DNA of 32,343 bases from assembly GCF_900491935.1 (NCBI RefSeq), contig NZ_UEXK01000004.1, positions 2,986,273 to 3,018,615 on the forward strand, in the 5' to 3' direction. Both the position numbers and the translations under genes were made by a program. Numbering within the stretch: the stretch's first letter is position 1; every line of letters starts with the position of its first letter. Positions 31,220 to 32,343 of this stretch are shown piece after piece. Origin of the DNA: Klenkia terrae (lineage in GTDB: Bacteria; Actinomycetota; Actinomycetes; Mycobacteriales; Geodermatophilaceae). A model generated the notes under the pieces. The model saw nothing but the letters and a program-made list of their open reading frames with translations. It did not search any database and was not told where the DNA came from.

Positions 31220-32143
31220 ATGAGCGAACGGCGCACCGGCGTCCTGATGGGCCTGGCGGCCTACGGGCTGTGGGGGCTGTTCCCGCTGTACTTCCCGCTG
31301 CTCGAGCCGGCCGGCGGGGTCGAGATCGTCGCCCACCGCATCGTGTGGTCGCTGCTGTTCGTGGCGCTGCTGCTCACCGTGCTGCGCGGCTGGTCGGCGG
31401 TGCGCCGCGCGGCCACCGACCGGCGCACCCTGCTGATCCTGGCCGGGGCCGCGGTGCTGATCACCGGCAACTGGCTCACCTTCGTGATCGCGGTGAACGC
31501 CGGCCACGTCGTCGAGACCTCGCTGGGCTACTTCATCAACCCGTTGGTCAGCGTGCTGCTGGGCGTCTGCTTCCTCGGGGAGCGGCTGCGCCGGCTGCAG
31601 TGGATCGCCGTGGGCACCGCGGCCGTGGCGGTGGCGATCCTGACCGTGGAGTACGGGCGGCCGCCGTGGATCGCCATCCTGCTGGCGGGCACCTTCGCCA
31701 CCTACGGCCTGCTCAAGAAGCTGGTCCGGGTCGACGCGGCGCCCGGGTTGTTCCTGGAGACCCTGATCCTCGTGGTCCCCGCACTCGTCGTGCTGGTGGT
31801 GCTGCAGGTCCGCGGGGCGAGCTCGCTGGGCGAGGCCGGCGCCGGGCACGTGCTGCTGCTGATGACCTCGGGCATCGCCACGGCCATCCCGCTGCTGCTG
31901 TTCGCCGCCTCCACCCGGCGCATCCCGCTGTCCACGGTGGGGCTGCTGCAGTACCTGACCCCGCTCATGCAGCTGGCCATCGGCGTGTTCGTCAACGGCG
32001 AGCCGATGCCGCCGGCCCGGCTGGCCGGGTTCGTGGTCGTCTGGCTCGCGCTGGCGATCTTCACCGTCGACGGCCTCCGGGCGAACCGGGCCACCCGCGC
32101 CGCCCGCCGGGACACCCTCGAACCCGCACCCGCCGGGCTCTGA
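31220..32143 (+). CDS. rarD: EamA/DMT-family transporter RarD
   Basis: RarD-type proteins are small-molecule exporters or permeases of the drug/metabolite transporter superfamily; their substrate is not settled. The 307-residue product has about ten transmembrane helices in two EamA halves and the RarD features GLAAYGLWGLFPLYFPLL at the start, EIVAHRIVWSLLF, GNWLTFVIAVNAGHVVETSLGYFINPL and STVGLLQYLTPLMQLAIGV. The ATG at 31220 is fixed by the -10 element 7 nt upstream. The gene is complete; the adapter-derived sequence begins 41 nt after its stop. Confidence 0.93.
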   Translation: MSERRTGVLMGLAAYGLWGLFPLYFPLLEPAGGVEIVAHRIVWSLLFVALLLTVLRGWSAVRRAATDRRTLLILAGAAVLITGNWLTFVIAVNAGHVVETSLGYFINPLVSVLLGVCFLGERLRRLQWIAVGTAAVAVAILTVEYGRPPWIAILLAGTFATYGLLKKLVRVDAAPGLFLETLILVVPALVVLVVLQVRGASSLGEAGAGHVLLLMTSGIATAIPLLLFAASTRRIPLSTVGLLQYLTPLMQLAIGVFVNGEPMPPARLAGFVVVWLALAIFTVDGLRANRATRAARRDTLEPAPAGL

Positions 32144-32184
32144 CGCGGGCCGCTGCCCGTCCGTCGGCCACCCGCCACCCCCCC

Positions 32185-32250
32185 CTGTCTCTCATACATA
32201 CCCCCGAGCCCACGAGACCAGAGAGGCACTTGTATGCCGTCCTCTGCTTG
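32185..32250 (+). other. Illumina Nextera adapter with i7 index (sequencing contamination)
   Basis: Bases 32185-32218 match the 34-nt Nextera transposase adapter read-through (from CTGTCTCT to CCCACGAGAC) with four substitutions. Bases 32219-32226 are CAGAGAGG, exactly the N708 i7 index. Bases 32227-32250 match the 24-nt i7 flow-cell primer (ending ATGCCGTC...CTGCTTG) with four substitutions. Element order and lengths are exact. This is not genomic DNA. Confidence 0.95.
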
Positions 32251-32343
32251 GAAACAAAATACCGACATCGATGTGCCGTCCGTCACCACCATGATGTTGT
32301 GCCCGTACGCGTTGCAACGCTATCCGGTCCGCTTCGATGACCC
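32251..32343. other. Unplaced tail after the adapter
   Basis: These 93 nt begin A-rich (GAAACAAAAT), as reads often do past the adapter end, and then continue with visibly lower GC than the contig. I recognise no gene. The tail could be low-quality read sequence or a chimeric join to another molecule and should not be treated as the neighbour of rarD. Confidence 0.7.

Follow-up and report, generated by a model that had tools for sequence, protein, structure and literature searches.

Features at the 3' end of the window

The window, by which we mean the whole 32,343-nucleotide stretch of DNA analysed here, corresponds to C4:2986273-3018615, where C4 is a scaffold of 4,731,847 bases in a genome of 4,806,923 bases and 23 contigs. 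The last intact gene before the artefact described below (31220..32143, forward strand) encodes an EamA-family transporter of 307 aa (Pfam EamA, E=2.2e-15), which we take to be RarD-like, and shows 82-89% DNA identity in six aligned genomes of the same genus. It is followed by the last genomic bases (32144..32184), which end in a run of C. Alignment with the six relatives breaks off 8 to 40 bases short of 32184, and the boundary between genomic and adapter sequence at this position is uncertain by about one base because the adapter also starts with C.

Immediately downstream, the 66 nt at 32185-32250 aligned without gaps to the Nextera i7 oligo and matched it at 50 of 58 adapter positions; the adapter letters used for this and all other alignments are those that we presume to be the kit's. 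Read on the forward strand, the stretch consists of a 34-nt transposase arm with 4 mismatches, an 8-nt index with none and a 24-nt P7 end with 4. Within the arm, the Tn5 mosaic end (32185..32203) differs at 4 of 19 positions, and the i7-side arm CCGAGCCCACGAGAC (32204..32218) is exact and has five further exact copies in the genome. The i7 index CAGAGAGG (32219..32226), presumably N708 of the Nextera kit set, is likewise exact and is followed by the P7 end of the i7 primer (32227..32250, 4/24 mismatches). Mosaic end, i7 arm, 8-nt index and P7 end were all found in the order and at the spacing of a Nextera dual-index construct. The eight substitutions, numbered along the adapter, are 9 T>C, 15 C>T, 17 T>C, 19 T>C, 43 A>C, 44 T>A, 47 C>T and 58 T>C. 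A preliminary description of this DNA had placed the adapter at the same coordinates, with the same order, part lengths and mismatch counts (4, 0 and 4), and had observed that most of its substitutions were T/C changes; the alignment bore out each of these points, with T/C changes making up 6 of the 8. Its further statement that the contig ends here was partly right: a run of 10 N starts exactly at the window's end, but the scaffold goes on beyond it, and the non-genomic stretch extends past 32250, to 32343.

The remaining 93 bases leading up to the N run (32251..32343, forward strand) have the appearance of a read tail, with an A-rich start that gives way to noise-like sequence. The tail has 56% GC and is more than a plain homopolymer, as would be expected if the adapter were an artefact and the tail real DNA of another molecule, joined to it as a chimera. 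We consider such a chimera very unlikely. Although 28 of 41 genomes, the source genome included, show some match to the tail at E<=1, the best match besides the tail itself in these genomes covers 33 bases (E=8.2e-4) and the other weak ones have E above 0.01. Among plasmids, two records matched over 21 and 30 bases (E of 0.2 or worse), and phage records gave zero matches, leaving no convincing source among the 41 genomes, plasmids and phages. Moreover, poly-A followed by noise-like sequence stands after the adapter at several other sites in this genome.

On the far side of the 10 N lies a reversed i7 adapter with 13/58 mismatches, in which the index CAGAGAGG is again exact. Both contig ends that meet at the window's gap are adapter tails. 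An open frame (L015:1010-1783) starts in the tail at window position 32337 and reads across the N run, then through the reversed adapter, into a LytR_C gene; automatic annotation of this frame could carry a false N-terminus.

Adapter sequences across the genome

At a cut-off of E<=1e-3, the i7 and i5 oligos matched 26 adapter places, 11 of them i7 and 15 i5, the latter being a lower bound (for i5, 40 of 49 candidates were scored). The i7 hits at C4:1551142 and 1551219 were counted as one place, and the reversed adapter beyond the window's gap lies outside the 26. Almost all of these adapters point at an interruption of the assembly: 24 of the 26 aim at an N run or a scaffold end within 192 bases, 23 of them reaching an N run after 8 to 192 bases in adapter direction and one stopping 27 bases before the scaffold end. 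Behind the adapter, in the upstream stretch read (up to 1500 bases), an N run was found at 0 of the 26 places. Three other adapter copies in the genome are exact over 47-50 nt. At C4:4428625 (L301), the N run adjoining an i5 adapter is 673 bases long; the other C4 adapter places have runs of 1, 2 or 10.

The two places with no N run nearby are C1:4357 and C9:5693. At C1:4357 (L295:1400-1750), an i5 adapter arm sits within the contig, uninterrupted by N. In one relative (G004), the sequences flanking it are separated by about 2.2 kb and occur in a different order, one being close to the end of a contig, and contig C1 may for this reason be a false join through the adapter. At C9:5693 (L302:1400-1700), a 29-nt remnant of an i5 adapter is likewise found within the contig.

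As a control, 12 evenly spaced 20-kb stretches (240 kb) were inspected and found to contain 7 N runs. A clear full adapter arm stood beside one of the seven, namely the window's own gap (4 and 6 mismatches on its sides). At the other six, the best match had 16 mismatches or more, inside or close to the 14 to 20 that 299 random pieces gave as background. At one of these six, C4:617379, an 18-nt piece of the mosaic end, with a single mismatch, abuts the N run and points at it; the remaining five of the 7 have no recognisable adapter beside them. Adapters in this assembly mark gaps, yet most sampled gaps are without a recognisable adapter.

The index is nearly constant across these places. CAGAGAGG is exact at 8 of the 11 i7 places, the window's included, and the other three read CAGACGAG, CAACGAGG and CAGTGAGG, which differ from CAGAGAGG at 1 to 3 positions, a pattern of one i7 index throughout as in a single library. 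This constancy is a library signature, since CAGAGAGG is otherwise rare: among the listed public matches to a pattern of i7 arm, any 8-nt index and P7 start, it was carried by only 1 of 82 in genomes and 4 of 83 in viral contigs. The deviation is one extra adapter copy. At C4:1551142-1551260 (L036), two copies stand in tandem, and the second, at C4:1551219, bears the index GCTACGCT, which we take to be N709; it could stem from a second library or from index mixing. Partner i5 arms are present in the same assembly, at the 15 or more places counted above. Their index reads TACTCCTT at 1 and TACCCCTT at 3 of 15 i5 places, and the remaining 11 are too degraded or unreadable to show one index. On the assumption that TACTCCTT is the reverse complement of S507, we infer that the index pair of the library was N708/S507. 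A literature search did not find the index letters in print, and the names N708, N709 and S507 are those presumed for these indices.

The sequence replaced by the gap

The flanks of the gap were aligned to six of the eight same-genus genomes (G001-G006, with G007 and G008 left out). In all six, the left and right flanks share a single contig and keep their order, with 1222 to 1516 bases between the match ends, showing that the scaffold join is right. After subtraction of the unmatched genomic bases on both sides, between 1108 and 1465 bases are missing at the gap, according to the six relatives; roughly 1.1-1.5 kb is thus represented in this assembly by 10 N and two adapter tails. The corresponding stretch of the relatives has 79.7-83.1% GC, reaching up to 92% in 100-base pieces, and 1.3% of 2244 overlapping 1300-base control windows of the source genome reach 79.7% GC.

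A protein encoded in the gap stretch, taken from G003, is a member of the DUF3263 family (Pfam E=1.9e-36), and by coordinates the DUF3263 matches of all six aligned relatives fall within the gap stretch. The gene is present in 7/7 other genomes of the genus that are at least 90% complete, and was unmatched in two of the nine genomes searched, the source genome and G008, the latter being 73% complete. The right flank of the gap in the source genome encodes the back half of a protein matching LytR_C (E=1.6e-11), the proline-rich front of which, judged from translations, also falls in the gap stretch of the relatives. It is conceivable, though very unlikely, that the species really lacks both the DUF3263 gene and the front of the LytR_C protein, with the gap there by coincidence; the adapter would be an artefact all the same. 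As it stands, the gap makes a gene that is kept throughout the more complete genomes of the genus look lost, and scoring of gene loss or of an odd N-terminus from this genome would be misled at this position.

Two other adapter gaps were compared with relatives. At the second, C4:3453663, only 7 bases lie between the flank matches in G004, and nothing large is missing. The flanks of the third, C4:350436, gave no usable match. Extending an extreme-GC cause to other gaps was not borne out at C4:3453663, the sole other comparable site.

Origin of the adapter

We are close to certain that the adapter at the window's end is Nextera i7 read-through left at a contig end, an artefact rather than biology. 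The preliminary description had already called it a degraded Nextera adapter at a contig end, and an untrimmed adapter in that position is what the genome as a whole shows: the index recurs at further gaps, i5 arms stand at others again, and the adapters face the gaps. At E<=1e-3, the i7 oligo was found in 0 of 40 other genomes from the same genus, family and order, and nothing that contradicts the adapter identity was found.

A real transposon end in the genome, that is a natural Tn5-like mosaic end, would account for the first 19 nt, which match the Tn5 mosaic end with 4 mismatches. It is exceedingly improbable, given that the mosaic end is followed by the synthetic parts of the oligo (arm, index and P7), that none of the 40 other genomes carries the adapter, and that 24 of the 26 arms are directed at gaps or a scaffold end. 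That GC-rich genomic DNA merely resembles the adapter by chance is as good as impossible: no observation spoke for it, and it was refuted by the expectation of 1.5e-17 places with at least 50/58 matches per genome (both strands, 9.6 Mb in all, assuming the base composition of the window), by a scan of both strands of the window in which the second-best match had 29/58 mismatches, and by the exact recurrence of CAGAGAGG at other gaps. The index taken by itself would match exactly with a probability of 1.6e-5 by composition alone, a value somewhat higher if any kit index is counted. These figures uphold the earlier view that an exact index between imperfect flanks is unlikely to arise by chance.

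The Nextera read-through probably arose as follows. A library fragment from a very GC-rich, hard-to-sequence place would have been shorter than the read, and the read would have passed through the insert into the i7 adapter, the index and the P7 end, and then into noise. The reads would have been incompletely adapter-trimmed, and the assembler would have kept the tail as a contig end where coverage was thin or nil; the scaffolder would then have joined the two contigs, leaving 10 N between them. We infer, in particular, that one or a few reads were involved, that coverage was low from the extreme GC and that trimming was lacking. A poor-quality read end as the source of the errors would fit both the noise-like tail and the T/C changes in the sequence. 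PMC6796507 describes Nextera XT as strongly biased in regions of low GC but only somewhat biased in species of high GC, which gives the GC-driven mechanism weak support at best. Also weighing against parts of this mechanism are the five control N runs with no adapter beside them, the two adapter places far from any N run, the small spacing at C4:3453663, the GCTACGCT copy and the degraded i5 indices.

Read-through of this kind is an ordinary artefact that bears on data quality alone. Despite ratings of 99.98% completeness and 0.27% contamination, the assembly holds at least 26 adapter places. In public data the pattern of i7 arm, any 8-nt index and P7 start is common, with at least 120 stretches each in genomes and in viral contigs. 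Among the matches listed (80 loci each), 79 of 82 in genomes and 82 of 83 in viral contigs have the end of the fetched stretch no more than 200 bases away in adapter direction, where the stretch end may differ from the contig end. The sequence described here shares with Illumina Nextera (XT) i7 read-through in draft assemblies its order, spacing, index, A-rich and noise-like tail and position at a contig end. It differs in being more degraded than some copies (8 mismatches) and in standing mid-scaffold owing to the N join. Two other cases with such a mid-scaffold position were seen: in Streptomyces mexicanus Marseille-Q0842 (L077), a Nextera i7 adapter is embedded in a large scaffold, and an N run follows it 201 bases downstream, and in Nocardia suismassiliense S-137 (L121) the N run follows 177 bases downstream of an adapter placed likewise. 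The indices differ from that of the window, reading AGGCAGAA in the former and CGTACTAG in the latter.
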